27,577 bases of DNA from a virus. The stretch spans positions 1 to 27,577 of IMG/VR virus record IMGVR_UViG_3300007540_000081; one strand, given 5' to 3'. Positions 6,241-18,270 of this stretch are shown here, one piece after another (position 1 is the first letter of the stretch; each line of letters starts with the position of its first letter). Both the position numbers and the translations under genes were made by a program. The notes under the pieces are model-generated. The model did not search any database. It worked only from the letters and a program-made list of their open reading frames with translations, and was not told the origin of the DNA.

Positions 6241-6267
6241 AAAAAAAGGGGCTTTATAAAAAGCCCC
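6241..6267 (-). terminator. Intrinsic terminator of the leftward early operon
   Basis: On the minus strand an eight-bp stem GGGGCTTT/AAAGCCCC (6248-6255 with 6260-6267) with a four-base loop is followed by seven T residues (6247-6241). It lies 26 bases after the stop of the 141-aa gene, separating the early operon from the late control region. Confidence 0.9.
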
Positions 6268-6293: not shown

Positions 6294-6719
6294 TTATTTA
6301 ACTTCTTCAATATCTAAAATATCAAGATCTTGGGAAACTAGTTTCATTTTATCCCCTCCTTTATCAAAAAATTCTGAAAAGGTTTTCTCTCTAGCCTCAT
6401 CCAAGTCTTGAGCCTCCACAATCTGAGAATAACTTTCATCAGTATTTATAACAACCTTAAACTTTTTCTTTTTCTCTTTTTTATTTTCTTTAAGGTTATT
6501 TAGTTCAATTAAAGTTCTATTAAAAGCCCTCACCATGTATGATAATGGCATATCTAAAAGAGATATATATTCATTCTTCGATTGCGAAAAATAAGGGGTT
6601 AAAAGTTTCCCTTCCTCATTTATATTAATGTCACAAGGATGTTTCCTTTTAGATCTTACACTTTCAATTGATAATAAGTCTTGAACATCAACAATATGAT
6701 TATTATTTTTATCTTTCAT
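6294..6719 (-). CDS. Hypothetical early protein, 141 aa (last gene of operon)
   Basis: A charged, soluble protein without a recognised family. The N-terminal half contains a run of hydrophobic and polar residues (SKNEYISLLDMPLSYMVRAF), a lysine-rich linker follows (ENKKEKKKKFKVV), and the C-terminal half has alternating acidic and hydrophobic residues ending in LDIEEVK, which could be a small alpha/beta domain. It starts at ATG 6719 behind the repeated AGAAAGGA box, which here lies inside the 3' codons of the upstream gene (11-bp overlap), and it ends just before the operon terminator. Function unknown. Confidence 0.65.
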   Translation of the reverse strand: MKDKNNNHIVDVQDLLSIESVRSKRKHPCDININEEGKLLTPYFSQSKNEYISLLDMPLSYMVRAFNRTLIELNNLKENKKEKKKKFKVVINTDESYSQIVEAQDLDEAREKTFSEFFDKGGDKMKLVSQDLDILDIEEVK

Positions 6720-6927
6720 TTTCTTTTTTCCTTTCTAAATGTTTAATTTCTTGATCTAATTTTAAAACAATAGACGAATATTTATTTGAATACTGTTTTG
6801 CTTTTTTTTCTTGAGCTTTCCAATAAAATATTTTTGAATTATATTCTATTCTTAAAGCTGTTTTTAATTCAATACTATTATTTTTATCACTATCCTTTTT
6901 TAATTGGTTTAGTGTTTCACTTTTCAT
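6709..6927 (-). CDS. Hypothetical early protein, 72 aa, coiled-coil-like
   Basis: A lysine- and glutamate-rich helical protein, probably a short coiled coil (residues 25-72). The longer reading frame starts at 6960, but ATG 6927 is chosen because the AGAAAGGAAAATATAAA box ends directly before it. The last codons (H-L-E-R-K-K-E-N-E-R) are themselves the box of the next gene. No family recognised. Confidence 0.65.
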   Translation of the reverse strand: MKSETLNQLKKDSDKNNSIELKTALRIEYNSKIFYWKAQEKKAKQYSNKYSSIVLKLDQEIKHLERKKENER

Positions 6928-6928
6928 T

Positions 6929-7114
6929 TTATATTTTCCTTTCTTCTTCTTTAAATTCAAAGCCTAATTTTTTTAATATAACTTTTCTTTGATCATTTAT
7001 TGACTTATCACCCCCAAATAGTTTAACAATCAATTTTGAAGTTTCACAAGTGGGGTACATTCTCTCAACTCCATAATCACTTTTAAAATGTACTATTAAT
7101 TTATTATTTTCCAT
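6929..7114 (-). CDS. Hypothetical early protein, 61 aa
   Basis: A small alpha/beta protein of the kind often seen in phage early regions: a beta start (LIVHFKSDYGVERMYP), a helix (ETSKLIVKLFGGDKS) and a final helix with LKKLGFEF. From memory, similar short phage proteins with a YP...L.G...LK.LGF pattern exist, but none has a function I can name. It uses the AGAAAGGAAAAAAGAAA box before ATG 7114. Its own C-terminal E-R-K-I and stop codon are formed by the next gene's box. Confidence 0.65.
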   Translation of the reverse strand: MENNKLIVHFKSDYGVERMYPTCETSKLIVKLFGGDKSINDQRKVILKKLGFEFKEEERKI

Positions 7115-7129
7115 TTTCTTTTTTCCTTT

Positions 7130-7723
7130 CTATTTAATTCTAGTTATCTCACAATTATCAGAGACAAATTTTATTGATAAGCTTTTTAAATCATCATCAT
7201 TTAAAAAGTCTATTACTTCATACATATTTTTAATTTCTCTTTTTTCCTTTATGTTATTAAGTTCAAAAAGTTTTAAAGGGTAGCCAATCCAAGAAATATT
7301 ATCATCAAATAAATTTGATTCCCCATATTCTTTTAATAAAGTTTCCTTTGAATGAATTGATATAATTTCGTCACCATTCCACGAAACACGAAACAAGGGG
7401 CATTTATATTGATTTAAATATATCTCTTCTTCAAAAGGTTTAAATTCAGAAAACCTATTTAATACTGTAAATTTAGCATTATATTCATTTTCTGGAATTG
7501 TGAACCAGAGACAATTATTCCACTCTTCCAAATCCTCAGAGTATTTTTTATCAATTAATTCAACTTCAATTTGATAATGATTGTATTTTTTATCTTCATG
7601 AATGCTTTTCACTACTCCCAACATTCCATTTAAATCAATATCATAATTAAAAACTATATGATGATAATCATCAAATTTTAAAACTTCATTAACTTTTAAA
7701 TTTCTTAAATTTAAATCATTCAT
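7130..7723 (-). CDS. Hypothetical early protein, 197 aa
   Basis: A soluble acidic protein with no recognised motif. It has a beta-rich N-terminal half (NEVLKFDDYHHIVFNYDIDL) and a central region with WFTIPENEYNAKF. The C-terminal third is helical. It is one of the larger unknowns in this operon. Start is ATG 7723 behind an AGAAAGGAAAAAATAAA box. A copy of the 19-base CACGAAACAC repeat (7379-7397) falls in frame and encodes L-F-R-V-S-W. No membrane segment, no cysteine cluster. Confidence 0.65.
   Translation of the reverse strand: MNDLNLRNLKVNEVLKFDDYHHIVFNYDIDLNGMLGVVKSIHEDKKYNHYQIEVELIDKKYSEDLEEWNNCLWFTIPENEYNAKFTVLNRFSEFKPFEEEIYLNQYKCPLFRVSWNGDEIISIHSKETLLKEYGESNLFDDNISWIGYPLKLFELNNIKEKREIKNMYEVIDFLNDDDLKSLSIKFVSDNCEITRIK
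7379..7397. repeat. CACGAAACAC-family dispersed repeat, copy C
   Basis: Identical over 19 bases to 6266-6284 but inside a coding region (197-aa gene, minus strand). The flanking bases diverge apart from G-rich sequence after it. Confidence 0.65.
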
Positions 7724-7742
7724 TTTATTTTTTCCTTTCTTA

Positions 7743-7955
7743 TTAAAGTTTTTTTAAAATAGAATTAAAAAGCCTTATTTCTTTTTTATATCCTTCAATA
7801 TTGCTTTCTATTCCTTTTATTAAATAATCATTTTCAATTGATATAATTTCATCGTCTAAAAGTTCTTGAGATCTATTTCTATTTTCCCCCAACTCCTCAA
7901 CTAAAAAACTATGTTCTTCACTTGTTAAAGTAATAGTTTTATTTTTTTCATTCAT
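7743..7955 (-). CDS. Hypothetical early protein, 70 aa
   Basis: An acidic helical protein starting with a strand-like TITLTSEEHSFLVEEL and continuing as two charged helices. The opening resembles the strand-helix start of small phage regulators, but no DNA-binding motif is clear. ATG 7955 follows the upstream gene's TAA by one base, both embedded in the AGAAAGGAAAAAATAAA box. Confidence 0.6.
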   Translation of the reverse strand: MNEKNKTITLTSEEHSFLVEELGENRNRSQELLDDEIISIENDYLIKGIESNIEGYKKEIRLFNSILKKL

Positions 7956-7956
7956 T

Positions 7957-8214
7957 TTATTTTTTCCTTTCTATTGTTTTTCTAAGGCTTTTAATCTTAT
8001 TATTTAAAGCCTTTCTATTTTCAAAAAGATTTTTTAACTTCTCTTTAAATTCTTTGATTTGGTCTTTTACTTCTTTAATATTACAAGTGTTATCAGTTCT
8101 ATCTTGACAAATGAAACTTAATTCCCTTTGTAATCTTTCTTTTTCTGTTACATCTCTAAAACGATTTAATTTTTCATCAAATACTTGCAATTTAAACCTA
8201 CTATTCAACATCAT
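7957..8214 (-). CDS. Hypothetical early protein, 85 aa, coiled coil
   Basis: Begins with a short beta stretch (RFKLQVFDEKLNRFRDV) and continues as a long basic coiled coil to the C-terminus (VKDQIKEFKEKLKNLF onward). Two cysteines (around 36 and 44) flank the turn between helices. Two ATGs in tandem follow the box. Its last codons E-R-K-K and stop are formed by the ribosome-binding box of the next gene. No family recognised. Confidence 0.6.
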   Translation of the reverse strand: MMLNSRFKLQVFDEKLNRFRDVTEKERLQRELSFICQDRTDNTCNIKEVKDQIKEFKEKLKNLFENRKALNNKIKSLRKTIERKK

Positions 8215-8231
8215 TTTATATTTTCCTTTCT

Positions 8232-8945
8232 TTAATTATCTAAAACAAAACCAGAAAAATCCTTTTTTGCTTTTCCTTTTGCTATTAACCCCACAATACA
8301 ATTTTTAGGGTCTAGAAATCGAAGGTCTGTTTCATCCCCATTAATGACTTTAAACCCTTTGTATTTTTTAGGAATGAAATCACGAAACACAGCCGAAATA
8401 TTACCCCCCTTTTCTAAAATATCAAAAGCTAGATCTCTATTATCTTCATTTAATGAATAAGTTATTGAATAATTAGAAGAGTATTGGCCATTGATATATT
8501 TTAAAGCCCTTTTATAAATTTTTGAATAATCATAAAATTTTATTTTAGGAAACTTTTCAAAGATACCAAAATTTTCCCATGAAATATCACTAGTTCCATT
8601 TAATCTAATACAAGGTTTAAAATTTTCTCTTTTGCATTTTTCAGAAAACTTTTTAATTTCTTTTGTTAGCTTTTCTAAAAAGCTTTCTCTCTCTTGCATA
8701 AACCACCTAGTTTTATTTATTCTTCCCAATTGCACATTCGAAAAAATACCCATTCCAGAAGTATATAAACAAGATTTAGAGCAACCTTTTGAAGCCATAG
8801 AACAAACATTAAAACCACTTTGAATATGTGGAGCAAGATATAAAATTAATGTTTTATATCCTTTCTTTTGGCCTTTTACTGTTTTTGCATTGTTATCATA
8901 ATTGAACAAATTGCCTTTTGTTTTATTAAATATTAAATTTTTCAT
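8232..8945 (-). CDS. Gp88-family phage protein
   Basis: A 237-residue member of what I recognise as the phage Gene product 88 family. Visible hallmarks are YLAPHIQSGFNVCSMASKGC (residues 36-55) continuing to SKSCLYTSG, with Cys48, Cys55 and Cys59 that could bind metal or an Fe-S cluster; the family signature RLNGTSDISWE near 122; and KIKFYDYSKIYKRAL soon after. The biochemical function of this family is not known to me; the Cys arrangement and conserved Arg, Asp and Trp suggest an enzyme. Start ATG 8945 is behind the AGAAAGGAAAAAAGAAA box. It is the only gene of this operon I can place in a family. Confidence 0.8.
   Translation of the reverse strand: MKNLIFNKTKGNLFNYDNNAKTVKGQKKGYKTLILYLAPHIQSGFNVCSMASKGCSKSCLYTSGMGIFSNVQLGRINKTRWFMQERESFLEKLTKEIKKFSEKCKRENFKPCIRLNGTSDISWENFGIFEKFPKIKFYDYSKIYKRALKYINGQYSSNYSITYSLNEDNRDLAFDILEKGGNISAVFRDFIPKKYKGFKVINGDETDLRFLDPKNCIVGLIAKGKAKKDFSGFVLDN
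8381..8390. repeat. CACGAAACAC core repeat, copy D
   Basis: Ten-base core only, inside the Gp88-family gene where the minus strand reads S-A-V-F-R-D. It is in a different reading phase from copy C. Confidence 0.45.
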
Positions 8946-8976
8946 TTTCTTTTTTCCTTTCTACTTTCTTAATTAA

Positions 8977-9552
8977 TTATTTTGTTATTTCACTCCAACA
9001 CCAAGACATAGAAAAAGGGTTAAAAACTTTTATTTTTTTCCCTTCAAATAATATTTGAGTGCTTTTAATTTCTACTTTTCCCCCTTCTTCTTCTGGATCA
9101 TATAAAATAATTGTATCATCATTTTTAATATGAAAAGTAGGGTTAAACTCATATTTAGGTTCCCAATTATCCGAATAATAAGGTGAATTTTTTATAAGTT
9201 CATTATGCTTTTTAATTCCTTCTAAAGTCATATAAACAATATTCCAACCATTCCAGAACCTATGATTATGAATATAACCCTCAACAAAGTTTTTAGGGTA
9301 ATTATCATAAGCATCTATGTAAATTTTCCCAAAATGAAATTCTTCTTTTGGCTCTTCATTTGTAAAGATAATTTTTTTATTTTTTATATCATTTAAAAAA
9401 TTTTCATTTTCTAGGCTTATAGTTTTTACAAAACCCCCACCATAAGCACAAAAATATAATTTGTTGTTTTTTACTTCTTCAATATTTCTATAATATGAAA
9501 AATCACTATTACATAAATATTTTTTATCTTTTATTATTTCTAGAATATTCAT
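8977..9552 (-). CDS. Hypothetical early protein, 191 aa
   Basis: A soluble protein rich in aromatic residues (many Tyr, Trp, Phe). It contains YFCAYGGGFVKTISL near 33-47, a central FVEGYIHNHRFWNGWNIVYM, and a beta-rich C-terminal region with DDTIILYDPEEEGGKVEI and a terminal SMSWCWSEI. No catalytic motif I recognise. Start ATG 9552 behind AGAAAGGAAAATTAAAA. The aromatic content and beta pattern suggest a compact globular domain, possibly an inhibitor or binding protein, but that is speculation. Confidence 0.6.
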   Translation of the reverse strand: MNILEIIKDKKYLCNSDFSYYRNIEEVKNNKLYFCAYGGGFVKTISLENENFLNDIKNKKIIFTNEEPKEEFHFGKIYIDAYDNYPKNFVEGYIHNHRFWNGWNIVYMTLEGIKKHNELIKNSPYYSDNWEPKYEFNPTFHIKNDDTIILYDPEEEGGKVEIKSTQILFEGKKIKVFNPFSMSWCWSEITK

Positions 9553-9554
9553 TT

Positions 9555-9725
9555 TTAATTTTCCTTTCTTAAATATTCATTAATAAAGGTTTCAACTACT
9601 TTGAAACTTTGTTTATTGTCTTTAGGTATTATTTTTAAAAGTTTATCATTTTCATGATAAATATTAAAAGTATTAGAATTTTCGATTATTTCAAAACCCC
9701 TATAAATAAAACTTTTATTTTTCAT
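9555..9725 (-). CDS. Small hypothetical early protein, 56 aa
   Basis: Found by reading the gap between neighbouring genes. It encodes MKNKSFIYRGFEIIENSNTF and continues for 56 residues, a beta-hairpin-like start (FIYRGFEII) followed by a helix. ATG 9725 overlaps the stop of the 91-aa gene (ATGA) and is preceded by GGAGGAGG within that gene, the strongest classical Shine-Dalgarno in this operon. Its final codons R-K-E-N and stop form the box of the 191-aa gene. Confidence 0.6.
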   Translation of the reverse strand: MKNKSFIYRGFEIIENSNTFNIYHENDKLLKIIPKDNKQSFKVVETFINEYLRKEN

Positions 9726-9997
9726 TTATTAGCCTCCTCCAATTCATTTAAATTAAACTTTCTTAATTCTTGCCTAATGATTTTATATAAATGAATATTT
9801 GTAAATATTCTTTTAGCAAGATCAAAATTATTATTTATTTTTGTTGCTACTTCTTTTGAAAAAGTATTTTCATAATCTAAAAAATCGTCATCTGGATGAA
9901 AATTTATTTTATTATCAATTAGCCATTTTATAAACTTTCTATATTCGCTTGTTTCCATAATTTTAAAATTTGGAATTTCTTTTATGACTTCATTCAT
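9722..9997 (-). CDS. Hypothetical early protein, 91 aa
   Basis: A helical soluble protein with a conserved-looking Trp (YRKFIKWLIDNKINFHPDDD) and a C-terminal helix NLNELEEANK. No family recognised. ATG 9997 is one base after the stop of the upstream 43-aa gene and directly behind AGAAAGGAATAAATAAA. It is coupled to the 56-aa gene by an ATGA overlap. Confidence 0.6.
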   Translation of the reverse strand: MNEVIKEIPNFKIMETSEYRKFIKWLIDNKINFHPDDDFLDYENTFSKEVATKINNNFDLAKRIFTNIHLYKIIRQELRKFNLNELEEANK

Positions 9998-9998
9998 T

Positions 9999-10130
9999 TT
10001 ATTTATTCCTTTCTATAAATTGTTGATTAGTCAAAATTTCTTTACTTCCATTATGATAGTATAAAACAAAGTAAGAAATAATTTTATTTTGTTTATACAA
10101 ATCAAATCTTTTTATATTTTTAAAGATCAT
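9999..10130 (-). CDS. Small hypothetical early protein, 43 aa
   Basis: The open frame continues upstream to 10181, but ATG 10130 is preferred because it makes an ATGA overlap with the stop of the 142/183-aa gene and removes a 17-residue out-of-frame extension. The product (MIFKNIKRFDLYKQN...) looks like a small three-strand beta sheet. Its last codons E-R-N-K and stop are provided by the box of the next gene. Confidence 0.5.
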   Translation of the reverse strand: MIFKNIKRFDLYKQNKIISYFVLYYHNGSKEILTNQQFIERNK

Positions 10131-10678
10131 TTTAGAGCCTTTAATAATAATGTTACTTTTAAAACTTCTTGCTTTTCCCAATTTCTAGAAATTCCAGAAG
10201 TGTTTTTTTCCTCGTTAATGTCATCAATTAAAACATCTAAATTATTTTTTAAATGTGGGGCAATTCCTAAAGTTACTAAAACATAATCAAGACAACTATT
10301 TTCTATGTTTTCATCGATTACTTTTCCAGATTTTAATAAAAATTCCCTTTCATTTTTTCTGGTTATTGCCTCGTATTTTTCCATAACCATTTTTACAAAT
10401 TCATCTACTCCAATTTTTTTAAAAACTAGATCGTAATTTTCTTTATTATATAAAAGTTCATGATCATGAATTTCTGAAATAAAATCTTTGTTATCATTGC
10501 CAATAAATTCATTTGCAATTTTATTTATTAATTCGTTTAATAATTTTATATTCATTTTGTTTTTTCCTTTCTCTATTTCTTTATTCATTTTAACAAAATT
10601 ATTTAATTCCCCTTTTTCAAATTTACTTAACTTTTTAAAAAAACGAAAATTTTTATATTCTTCTTTTTTATTCATCAT
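10127..10678 (-). CDS. Hypothetical early protein, 183 aa (or 142 aa from internal start)
   Basis: First gene of the leftward early operon. A charged helical protein without a recognised family; one hydrophobic patch, SCLDYVLVTLGIAPHL, lies near 128-143. Two starts are supported. ATG 10678 follows AGAAAGGATAAAATAAA; ATG 10555, in the same frame at Met42, follows AGAAAGGAAAAAACAAA, an even closer match to the operon's box. The first 41 residues are basic and could be a separate cassette that lost its stop codon. Either one long protein or two nested products is possible. No cysteine cluster or membrane segment. Confidence 0.6.
   Translation of the reverse strand: MMNKKEEYKNFRFFKKLSKFEKGELNNFVKMNKEIEKGKNKMNIKLLNELINKIANEFIGNDNKDFISEIHDHELLYNKENYDLVFKKIGVDEFVKMVMEKYEAITRKNEREFLLKSGKVIDENIENSCLDYVLVTLGIAPHLKNNLDVLIDDINEEKNTSGISRNWEKQEVLKVTLLLKALK
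10556..10572 (-). promoter_or_regulatory. Internal copy of the early-operon ribosome-binding box
   Basis: AGAAAGGAAAAAACAAA directly before in-frame ATG 10555. At other junctions this box ends a gene and begins the next; here it is read through as E-K-G-K-N-K. It decides whether the first gene makes a 142- or 183-residue product. Confidence 0.55.
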
Positions 10679-10889
10679 TTTATTTTATCCTTTCTAAATA
10701 AATATAATAAAATACTACATAATATTATATATAGTTACAATACCTATTATATATAACCCTACATAATAACCCCCTACTATGACAATATAAGGGTTTTTTT
10801 AAATTTTTGGCTTTTTTCCTAGATTTCTCAAGTGTTCTTCTTTTGTTCTTTTAAAAATTTAAAATTTTTTTATTTTTTTTTTAAAAAAT

Positions 10890-11006: not shown

Positions 11007-11996
11007 ATGAAATTAAGACATTTAGATCTTTTTTCTGGAATAGGTGGTTTCAGCCTGGGCTTAGAAGCGACAGGTGGATTTGAAACAGTTGCCTTTTGCG
11101 ATATTGAGAAGTATTGTTTAGAAATTTTAGAGAAAAGATATCCCGGCGTTCCCCGGTACACGAATATTAAGGAGTTAAACCATGACACAATCAAAACAGA
11201 TGGAGTTTTTCCAATCGACATCATTACAGGAGGATACCCTTGCCAACCTTTCTCCGTTGCAGGTAGAAAAAAAGGTGAAAAAGATCCAAGACATCTCTGG
11301 CCAGAAATGTTTAGACTTGTCCAAGAGCTGCGACCGACTTGGGTTATTGGAGAAAACGTTAGTGGGCACATTAAACTCGGTCTCGACACCGTTCTCAAGA
11401 ACTTGGAGAGTGAAGGTTACGCCGCAAGGACGTTTAGTATTTCAGCTTCGAGCATCGGTGCGAACCACCAAAGAGAAAGAGTCTGGATTGTGGCGAACTC
11501 CAGACAACATGAAAGGGGGCTCGAACCTTCCGGGAATAAAGAAGGCATTGGACGAGGGTCATCTGAAAAGACCGAGTGGTCAACCAATGCAGATCAGACT
11601 TCAGGATCAAGTCAAAGAGGAGAGATTATGGCCGACACCAAAAACATCGGATCAATACTCAGCTCACATGAAGGAGAACAACAAGGGAATTCCACACGAT
11701 GTAGCGAAGGGCAATCTGAGGGGGATGGTCAAACAATGGCCAACACCTCAAGCGAGCGAACATCACGCGGGGAGACCAGGCGGGAAGATGCAGAAAATGT
11801 TGGGCAATCATCCAGACGTCCGTGGAACGGGTGGTGGGACATTGAACCCGACGTGGGTAGAGTGGCTAATGGGGTACCCAAAAGGGTGGACAGACTTAAA
11901 TCACTCGGAAATAGTCTCGTCCCTTCCATTCCCTACTACATCGGACTCAGCATCCTCCAAACCTATGAAGACGAATTGGCCAACACCTCTGAGTAG
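11007..11996 (+). CDS. C5-cytosine DNA methyltransferase (Dcm family)
   Basis: A 329-residue enzyme that would transfer a methyl group from S-adenosylmethionine to C5 of cytosine in a short DNA target. All key motifs are visible: motif I DLFSGIGGF (7-15), motif IV GGYPCQPFS with catalytic Cys79, motif VI GENV (115-118), motif VIII QRERVW (155-160), and motifs IX/X RVANGVPKRVDRLKSLGNSLVP (284-306, shown in two parts: RVANGVPKRVDRLK, SLGNSLVP). The target-recognition region (about 165-275) is unusually rich in Ser, Gly, Glu and Arg and contains MADT and MANT repeats, because it shares its DNA with a second ORF in the +1 frame. Start is supported by GGAG seven bases upstream. No partner restriction gene is visible, so self-protection or anti-restriction is likely. 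Specificity cannot be read. Confidence 0.93.
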   Translation: MKLRHLDLFSGIGGFSLGLEATGGFETVAFCDIEKYCLEILEKRYPGVPRYTNIKELNHDTIKTDGVFPIDIITGGYPCQPFSVAGRKKGEKDPRHLWPEMFRLVQELRPTWVIGENVSGHIKLGLDTVLKNLESEGYAARTFSISASSIGANHQRERVWIVANSRQHERGLEPSGNKEGIGRGSSEKTEWSTNADQTSGSSQRGEIMADTKNIGSILSSHEGEQQGNSTRCSEGQSEGDGQTMANTSSERTSRGETRREDAENVGQSSRRPWNGWWDIEPDVGRVANGVPKRVDRLKSLGNSLVPSIPYYIGLSILQTYEDELANTSE

Positions 11997-12823: not shown

Positions 12824-12849
12824 AATACTATATTAAAGAAAGGAAGAAA

Positions 12850-13074
12850 ATGTTTGAATTTTTAAAGAATATTATACAGCCAAAAGAAATAAAAGAGCCT
12901 GGTGATATTAAATTTAAAGATTGTATTAAATCTATATCAGCGAAACACGGATCGCGTGGCTCGTTACTTCAAAACTTATTAGTGTCTTATGTTACCGATG
13001 AAGAGCATGAACATGAAGAGTGGAGAATAAATAGTTTAATGAGTGAAGAACCAAGAAAGGGAGAGCATGATTAA
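12850..13074 (+). CDS. Hypothetical protein, 74 aa
   Basis: A soluble acidic protein with a basic middle (KSISAKHGSRGSLLQNLL) and an acidic, His-rich C-terminus (DEEHEHEEWRIN). Starts at ATG 12850 behind AAAGAAAGGAAGAAA, a plus-strand copy of the early ribosome-binding box. The His/Glu cluster could bind metal. No family recognised. It opens a four-gene plus-strand cluster under its own promoter. Confidence 0.6.
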   Translation: MFEFLKNIIQPKEIKEPGDIKFKDCIKSISAKHGSRGSLLQNLLVSYVTDEEHEHEEWRINSLMSEEPRKGEHD

Positions 13075-17448: not shown

Positions 17449-18270
17449 ATGAACGATGTAACGAGAAAAAAGAAAAATGAAGTATCGACTGAAGTCATTG
17501 ACTTTTCTTCCCACGCTGGTGTTGGGTTTGAAAATGTTAATGCTGGAGAAATGGCAATTCCATTTTTAAAAATTGCTAGTTCTCAAACTCCTGAAGTTAA
17601 AAAATCAAATGCAAAATATGTCGAAGGACTTGAGCAAGGAAATATTTTTAACTCAGTTAACAAAGATTTTTATGATAGTATTTCTGTCATACCTTGTGCT
17701 TTTAGAGTACGCTGTGTTGAATGGTCTCCACTTGGAGAAGGTTCTGGTTATCCAGAAAAAATCTATACTCCAGAAAATTGCCCTCCTCTTACAAGAGGTG
17801 CAGATGGTGAGGATCATTATATGATTAATGGTGCAATGAGCCCTACATATATTGTAAGAACTGCCGAGTATTTTGTTTTACGTTTAAATGATGATGGGTC
17901 TTTTGAAAGATGTCAAATCATTATGCAGAAAACTCAATACAAAAAATCCCGTTATTGGAATACAATGATGATGAATCAAAAAGTACAATCCAAGACTGGG
18001 TCACTTATGACTCTTCCAATGTTTGCGAATGTTTATAAAATGGAAACTGTTCTTGAACAAAATAAGAAGAATGATTGGTGGGGATGGAAAATAACATTAA
18101 ATAAATCTATTAATGATTTAAAAAATCCATCTTTTATTGTGGGGGAAGCACAAAACTTTCATGAACTAGTCAGCTCTGGATCAATTGATCCAGCTCCTGA
18201 AGCTATGGCAGATGCCGAGGAAATTGTTGAAGTCAAGCCTCAATCAGCTCATAGCGAAGTTCTTGGCTAA
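17449..18270 (+). CDS. Likely ssDNA-binding-type replication protein, 273 aa
   Basis: A mostly beta protein with an early AIPFLKIASSQTPEVKKS, an aromatic-rich middle (YDSISVIPCAFRVRCVEWSP) and QYKKSRYWNTMMMNQKVQSK, an acidic C-terminal tail (PEAMADAEEIVEVKPQ). Acidic tails and aromatic beta cores are hallmarks of ssDNA-binding proteins, and the gene sits right before the primase with a terminator between. It starts two bases after the previous stop. I recall similar phage proteins of unknown function, so the ssDNA-binding call is an inference. Confidence 0.55.
   Translation: MNDVTRKKKNEVSTEVIDFSSHAGVGFENVNAGEMAIPFLKIASSQTPEVKKSNAKYVEGLEQGNIFNSVNKDFYDSISVIPCAFRVRCVEWSPLGEGSGYPEKIYTPENCPPLTRGADGEDHYMINGAMSPTYIVRTAEYFVLRLNDDGSFERCQIIMQKTQYKKSRYWNTMMMNQKVQSKTGSLMTLPMFANVYKMETVLEQNKKNDWWGWKITLNKSINDLKNPSFIVGEAQNFHELVSSGSIDPAPEAMADAEEIVEVKPQSAHSEVLG

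Follow-up and report, generated by a model that had tools for sequence, protein, structure and literature searches.

A uniform ribosome-binding box joins the genes of an accessory operon in a pelagiphage-related virus and probably serves as a site of cassette exchange

The virus record IMG/VR IMGVR_UViG_3300007540_000081 was analysed over a 27.6-kb stretch of 27,577 nucleotides (nt), here called the window. It carries on its minus strand (10695-6294) an accessory operon of small open reading frames (ORFs), almost all of which begin with the same start box: AGAAAGGA, exactly 9 nt, and then ATG. Judged by its sequence, the window is that of an ocean phage related to SAR11-infecting phages. Its terminase is approximately 60% identical to those of the pelagiphages HTVC027P and HTVC023P, phage 023Pt_psg01 and the lake phage DSL-LC04. 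A SAR11-type host is likely, because the isolate or fosmid phages whose DNA resembles the operon are without exception (10/10) pelagiphages or uncultured marine phages. Terminator-like sites were found past the last operon gene and upstream of the first one, and none between operon genes, while promoter-like hits in the operon are at the level of shuffled sequence. The operon is probably transcribed as a single unit. Since there are no internal terminators and promoter hits are at chance, each cassette would require no signal beyond a ribosome-binding site, and the box provides one. Searches of the operon proteins with PADLOC and NCBIfam gave weak or generic matches only, and an Rfam search of the window gave no match.

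The box is present at 11 of the 12 operon starts (6719, 6927, 7114, 7723, 7955, 8214, 8945, 9552, 9997, 10555 and 10678), and a spacing other than 9 nt occurs only at second ATGs. A preliminary description had listed these 11 starts with a common box and an A-rich spacer of nearly fixed length, and the spacing proved to be exactly 9 nt in all of them. The uniformity it ascribed to the operon holds with the exception of start 9725, where GGAGGAGG takes the place of the box. It had also pointed to plus-strand copies before 12850 and 23649. AGAAAGGA is indeed present at both positions, but because its spacing there is 5 nt rather than 9 nt, these copies were left out of the system as ordinary Shine-Dalgarno (SD) sites. 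The sequence at 12837-12852, before start 12850, reads AGAAAGGAAGAAAATG; this is one GAAA unit short of the AGAAAGGAAGAAAGAAAATG box seen in relatives, which may be chance. Within the window, AGAAAGGA occurs 15 times against 2.06 expected, including copies away from starts at 8859 (within a gene) and 21489. For the 20-mer AGAAAGGAWWWWWNAAAATG, allowing 2 mismatches at most, 12 occurrences compare with 0.28 expected, and 11 of these 12 are operon starts. Across the 11 boxed starts, bases -17 to -10, -7 and -3 to -1 are invariant, and conservation extends from -17 up to the ATG and falls sharply 5' of -17. The comparison with other genes proposed in the preliminary description yielded a clear enrichment, with the box at 11/12 operon starts versus 0 of approximately 30 other window starts (Fisher p ~3e-9, on a gene list made by hand). 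All 11 boxes lie on one strand, in one operon and in a non-structural gene region, and no inverted-repeat structure was found at them. A promoter role for the TAAAAT seen in some boxes was considered and dropped, as its T is frequently replaced by G, A or C and promoter-like hits are no more common than chance predicts.

Table 1. Boxes and other features of the accessory operon in the window
Feature	Positions	Strand	Sequence	Remarks
Terminator-like hairpin	6248..6267	-	GGGGCTTTTTATAAAGCCCC	followed by T run; past last gene
Accessory operon of small box-joined ORFs	6294..10695	-		no terminator-like site between genes
Start box of gene 6719-6294	6717..6736	-	AGAAAGGAAAAAAGAAAATG	
Start box of gene 6927-6709	6925..6944	-	AGAAAGGAAAATATAAAATG	upstream ORF reads ...E-R-K-I-TAA
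Start box of gene 7114-6929	7112..7131	-	AGAAAGGAAAAAAGAAAATG	anchor family g2
Start box of gene 7723-7130	7721..7740	-	AGAAAGGAAAAAATAAAATG	family g16
Start box of gene 7955-7743	7953..7972	-	AGAAAGGAAAAAATAAAATG	upstream ORF reads E-R-K-K-TAA
Start box of gene 8214-7957	8212..8231	-	AGAAAGGAAAATATAAAATG	
Start box of gene 8945-8232	8943..8962	-	AGAAAGGAAAAAAGAAAATG	anchor g1; GP88 family PF17338 / phrog_1617
Start box of gene 9552-8977	9550..9569	-	AGAAAGGAAAATTAAAAATG	empty site of the g31 cassette found in L040, L212 and L222
Ordinary SD of gene 9725-9555	9733..9740	-	GGAGGAGG	sole box-free operon start
Start box of gene 9997-9722	9995..10014	-	AGAAAGGAATAAATAAAATG	upstream frame reads E-R-N-K-TAA
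Box within ORF 10678-10127	10553..10572	-	AGAAAGGAAAAAACAAAATG	in-frame E-K-G-K-N-K-M; gene-fusion joint
Start box of first operon ORF 10678-10127	10676..10695	-	AGAAAGGATAAAATAAAATG	

The core of the box, AGAAAGGA, is exactly complementary to UCCUUUCU. All readable SAR11 16S genes (93/93) end in ...ACCTCCTTTCT before AAGGA or similar, an end that includes UCCUUUCU. The mature 16S rRNA of SAR11 type probably ends at UCCUUUCU, with which, as its last 8 nt, AGAAAGGA could pair. The box is accordingly best described as a putative 20-bp translation-initiation region, in which AGAAAGGA would act as an extended SD sequence, followed by a fixed 9-nt A-rich spacer and the ATG. With its complementarity to the 3' end of 16S rRNA and a suitable distance to the ATG, it qualifies as an SD sequence for the predicted host, and it may be translationally strong. 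The arrangement of AGAAAGGA, nine arbitrary nucleotides and ATG was not found in 893 kb of SAR11 DNA, a sample limited to regions around rRNA genes, and the 20-mer box does not appear to be a habit of the host.

Relatives were found by scans with the terminase, the GP88-family protein (8945-8232) and the box itself, giving approximately 20 distinct contigs with the operon. Most of the compared loci are metagenomic contigs (L numbers below). The box at strict 9-nt spacing is kept at 98 of 121 operon starts in these relatives, while the gene content of the operon differs in nearly every genome. The anchor genes g1 (GP88), g2 and g0 are mostly retained, and the slot between g1 and g2 is either empty or occupied by one to three genes, of which about ten different sets occur. 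In box-free relatives with 82-86% terminase identity, the whole operon is missing and the flanking genes are shared. Four 50-kb reference phages have at most 2 starts with a similar 17-mer, versus 11 in the window. The preliminary description would have been contradicted by a fixed gene order and a missing box in relatives; instead, the box is present, the order varies, and gain, loss and relocation of genes break at the box. As a separate observation, an inverted repeat, AAATGAAATAAA...TTTATTTCGTTT, is conserved between g1 and the next box in L018, L020, L021, L201, L273 and L326, and keeps with g1 regardless of the gene after the box.

The breakpoints are seen in comparisons of pairs. L040 and L212 share 99.9% identity across 3910 nt, as far as the box and ATGA after g1, beyond which their genes are unrelated. 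In three filled and empty pairs, a cassette is bracketed on both sides by the same box variant, of which the sister genome has a single copy. The g31 cassette of L040, L212 and L222 lies between two AAATTAAAA boxes, of which the window has one; this variant has seven copies, all at the g31 site. Likewise, g33 in L021 lies between two AAGAAGAAA boxes, of which L020 has one, and all three copies of this variant are at the g33 site. A 67-aa cassette in L196 lies between two AAATATAAA boxes, of which L015 and L040 have one. The two boxes on either side of a polymorphic cassette are more alike than boxes paired at random within the same genome (p = 0.0002). After related events had been merged, the flanking boxes of the 13 collapsed events differ at 8 positions in total versus 18.1 expected from such pairs (p = 0.0016). 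Among pairwise pure indels, the box is part of the direct repeat in 28/49 within the operon versus 1/46 outside, in counts from contig pairs that are not independent. Relocation is illustrated by the g38 cassette, which stands before g1 in L022 and after g1 in L214. From shortly upstream of its own box to shortly past the following one, its two copies share 93.3% identity over 327 nt, far above the 75% identity of g1 between the same contigs. For g35, g56 and g16, the match also begins exactly at the box. Concerted evolution of the box was also considered; likeness within genomes exceeds global shuffles (p < 0.0005) and is weak within groups (p = 0.037), which amounts to a hint.

The box is frequently read by the gene upstream of it. 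In frame 1, it encodes E-R-K-K/I and then, if the spacer has a T, TAA one base before the ATG. Frame 2 encodes R-K-E-N or the like and terminates at TAA, at ATGA or some codons inside the next gene, and frame 3 gives K-G-K-N-K-M, which is free of stops and fuses both genes. The preliminary description had stated that the box supplies the last codons and TAA of the upstream protein at four starts, and the translations agree: ERKI before 6927, ERKK before 7955, ERNK before 9997 and RKEN before 9552, each followed by TAA. All three frames across the box would thus be usable, through stop codons, ATGA-type or slightly overlapping ends, or in-frame fusion. Because the box is passable in all three frames, exchange there would also have made fused proteins and C-terminal tails, and fossils of such fusions are found. 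The first operon ORF (183 aa, annotated-looking) is a fusion across a box, with start 10555 in frame within it and the box there read as EKGKNK-M. Its modules occur as a-b-c in the window, a-c in L222, b-c in L273 and L201, and c alone in L046, and module b is joined to g14 in L214 at GGAAAAAATAAAATG. The joints a-b, a-c and b-g14 are box-derived KGKNKM or GKNKM. In L214 and L213, g16 encodes 95 aa and ends in a box, while in the window and L212 it runs on to 197 residues. In L046, the residue-95 point is joined in frame to g2 via AAT AGA AAG GAA AAT AAA ATA, which is the box without its ATG.

Taken together, it is probable that the box, as an extended SD sequence uniform across the accessory operon, is also the homology joint at which cassettes are exchanged. 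In this mechanism, recombination between box copies, whether these lie in a single genome or in two co-infecting relatives, would add, remove or relocate units of box and gene within one co-transcribed operon. Whole units would move because the copies form direct repeats of nearly identical sequence placed precisely at gene borders, and approximately 20 bases of near-identity at every border would offer a target for annealing or homologous recombination by a host or phage enzyme. Each box-to-box exchange would give a translatable product. A tolerance of divergence is known from phage Rad52-like recombinases (PMC3945230). The earlier picture of interchangeable cassettes joined by one linker and swapped at the box is thus borne out by the indels and the filled and empty sites, with homology as the suggested driver. 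The recombination step itself is proposed from comparative evidence.

Several observations weigh against this mechanism. About 20 of the 49 pure indels in the operon lack an exact box in the repeat; some of them have variants such as AGAAAGGGCAAAAGATG and others, among them a 648-bp deletion in L201, just 4-14 nt of microhomology. A chimera test was borderline (p = 0.035). Crossover points cannot be placed inside the box, because identical boxes extend alignments through it. Furthermore, a recombinase was sought in the window and none was identified. A conserved 273-aa protein at 17449-18270 (Pam3_Gp34, phrog_2402) was considered, and no recombinase role is claimed for it because its model is of low confidence (pLDDT 59.7) and it has no PDB match at E 0.001.

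One competitor is pure translational selection, in which the box is nothing more than the best ribosome-binding site for these phages, genes join illegitimately and only well-spaced joins survive. The exact match of AGAAAGGA to the SAR11 16S tail and the invariance of the 8-nt core while the spacer drifts would fit this, and surviving breakpoints are expected at gene borders anyway. However, the box is absent from the structural and replication genes of this phage, and cassette-flanking boxes and the corresponding empty site have spacer variants in common. The abrupt divergence of L040 and L212 exactly at the box and the other, internally uniform boxes at homologous genes of other pelagiphages (see below) also speak against it. 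Selection of this kind as the whole explanation is therefore considered unlikely, and box homology probably drives the exchange, as opposed to random joining followed by selection for precise joins.

Known systems offer partial parallels, the nearest being the Start-Associated Sequences (SAS) of mycobacteriophages and the repeats of Cluster O; a literature search on ribosome-binding sites as recombination joints gave nothing closer. SAS and their extended form (ESAS) occur in Cluster K mycobacteriophages and Cluster EF Microbacterium phages (PMC3203893, PMC7302621). They are short, unusually conserved asymmetric motifs at the ribosome-binding position before many non-structural genes of different families, with possible 16S pairing and a sequence specific to the phage group. 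The boxes agree with this in being a conserved, asymmetric motif at the ribosome-binding position of many starts and in their location in a non-structural region and in one orientation. The SAS consensus, GGGATAGGAGCCC or GGGAAAGGACCCC, differs from AGAAAGGA plus 9 nt, and SAS mostly stand at genes separated from the preceding gene by more than 50 bp, behind large intergenic gaps, whereas boxed genes abut or overlap. Approximately half of the SAS have 17-bp imperfect inverted repeats just upstream (ESAS), unlike the boxes, and cassette exchange at the motif is not described in the sections consulted of PMC3203893 and PMC7302621.

The regulatory role suspected for SAS suggests another reading, in which uniformity serves a phage RNA-binding protein, a small RNA or a modified ribosome that controls the operon jointly, with shuffling as a by-product. 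Conservation past the SD core (-7 and -3 to -1 invariant in 11 copies) and confinement to one operon are in line with it, and SAS are described as having conserved bases unable to pair with 16S rRNA (PMC3203893). On the other hand, no candidate regulator was identified, the spacer accepts lineage-specific changes (AAAAAGAAA, AGAAAGAAA), and the boxes have neither an Rfam match nor an inverted repeat. This reading is compatible with exchange at the box and, as the main reason for its uniformity, improbable.

In Cluster O mycobacteriophages, a gene likewise lies between two copies of a 17-bp repeat that is present once at the empty site of relatives, and recombination between the repeats is proposed there as well, although this repeat is palindromic and not linked to translation starts (PMC4351075). 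The box also differs from morons, which are single genes with their own promoter and terminator, as the operon genes are not. In lambdoid phages, boundary or linker sequences, that is short homologies at gene borders, have been proposed to target mosaic joins; these are separate sequences at separate borders, whereas the box is one sequence at nearly all borders of the operon. The PeSL promoter-terminator cassettes of T4-type phages, reportedly an early promoter combined with a terminator hairpin, are said to mediate modular shuffling in a similar way, as short repeats of an expression signal that lie between small accessory genes. The box differs in being a translation-initiation region only, inside one transcription unit, with no promoter or terminator between genes.

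A dedicated mobile system with an integron-like, site-specific recombinase recognising the box would explain why box and gene move together and fill several slots, but it is very improbable, as inverted-repeat structure is missing from the box, free variation of its sequence is seen in the spacer and between lineages, and no integrase-like gene was found among the searched proteins of the window, which is a fragment of an incomplete genome. Misjoining by short-read assemblers at 20-bp repeats, conceivable for a box repeated up to 11 times in mostly short-read metagenome contigs, has equally little to recommend it, since the filled and empty states of g33, g31 and g20 recur in independent contigs 5-10% apart, mutated boxes occur in fused genes, and usual assembly k-mers are longer than repeats of 20-22 bp.

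Two features lie outside the box system. A C5-methyltransferase gene (11007-11996) with a GC content of approximately 0.47 adjoins the operon, which has a GC content of 0.22. Between relatives, indels outside the operon are often accompanied by GC-rich repeats, e.g., GGCGTTCGCCACAATC, a repeat class other than the box.

Homologues of the anchor gene are found at the early end of T7-like pelagiphages. In the cultured pelagiphage HTVC309P (L515, 939-4380), the identical 16-mer AACAGAAAAGGTAAAT precedes the ATG of gp1, gp2, gp3 and gp6. These are four of the first six genes, and among the 48 annotated genes the 16-mer is confined to them. Bylgja and S42C7 each carry a version of the box of their own, in three copies, and column shuffles for these pelagiphage boxes never gave more than two. 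The same genes therefore carry different, internally uniform boxes by lineage. In the unrelated phage contig L175 (3188-10650, minus strand), approximately fifteen small genes each stand behind GAAAAGGAGATAAAAAAATG or a close variant. These four cases are supporting hints that standardised start regions extend beyond the lineage of the window. The chances seem even that many marine phages standardise the start region of accessory operons to one lineage-specific sequence, kept uniform by recombination, so that the ribosome-binding site becomes the joint that channels acquisition, deletion, relocation and in-frame fusion.

Uniform start boxes could serve as a search handle for accessory gene islands and for correcting gene starts and fusions in phage annotation. 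The most interesting part is the ribosome-binding site as a recombination joint, as the comparison of genomes suggests. A translation-start sequence that doubles as gene-joining homology would provide phages with a route to gain, lose, move and fuse small genes of unknown function while their expression stays intact.

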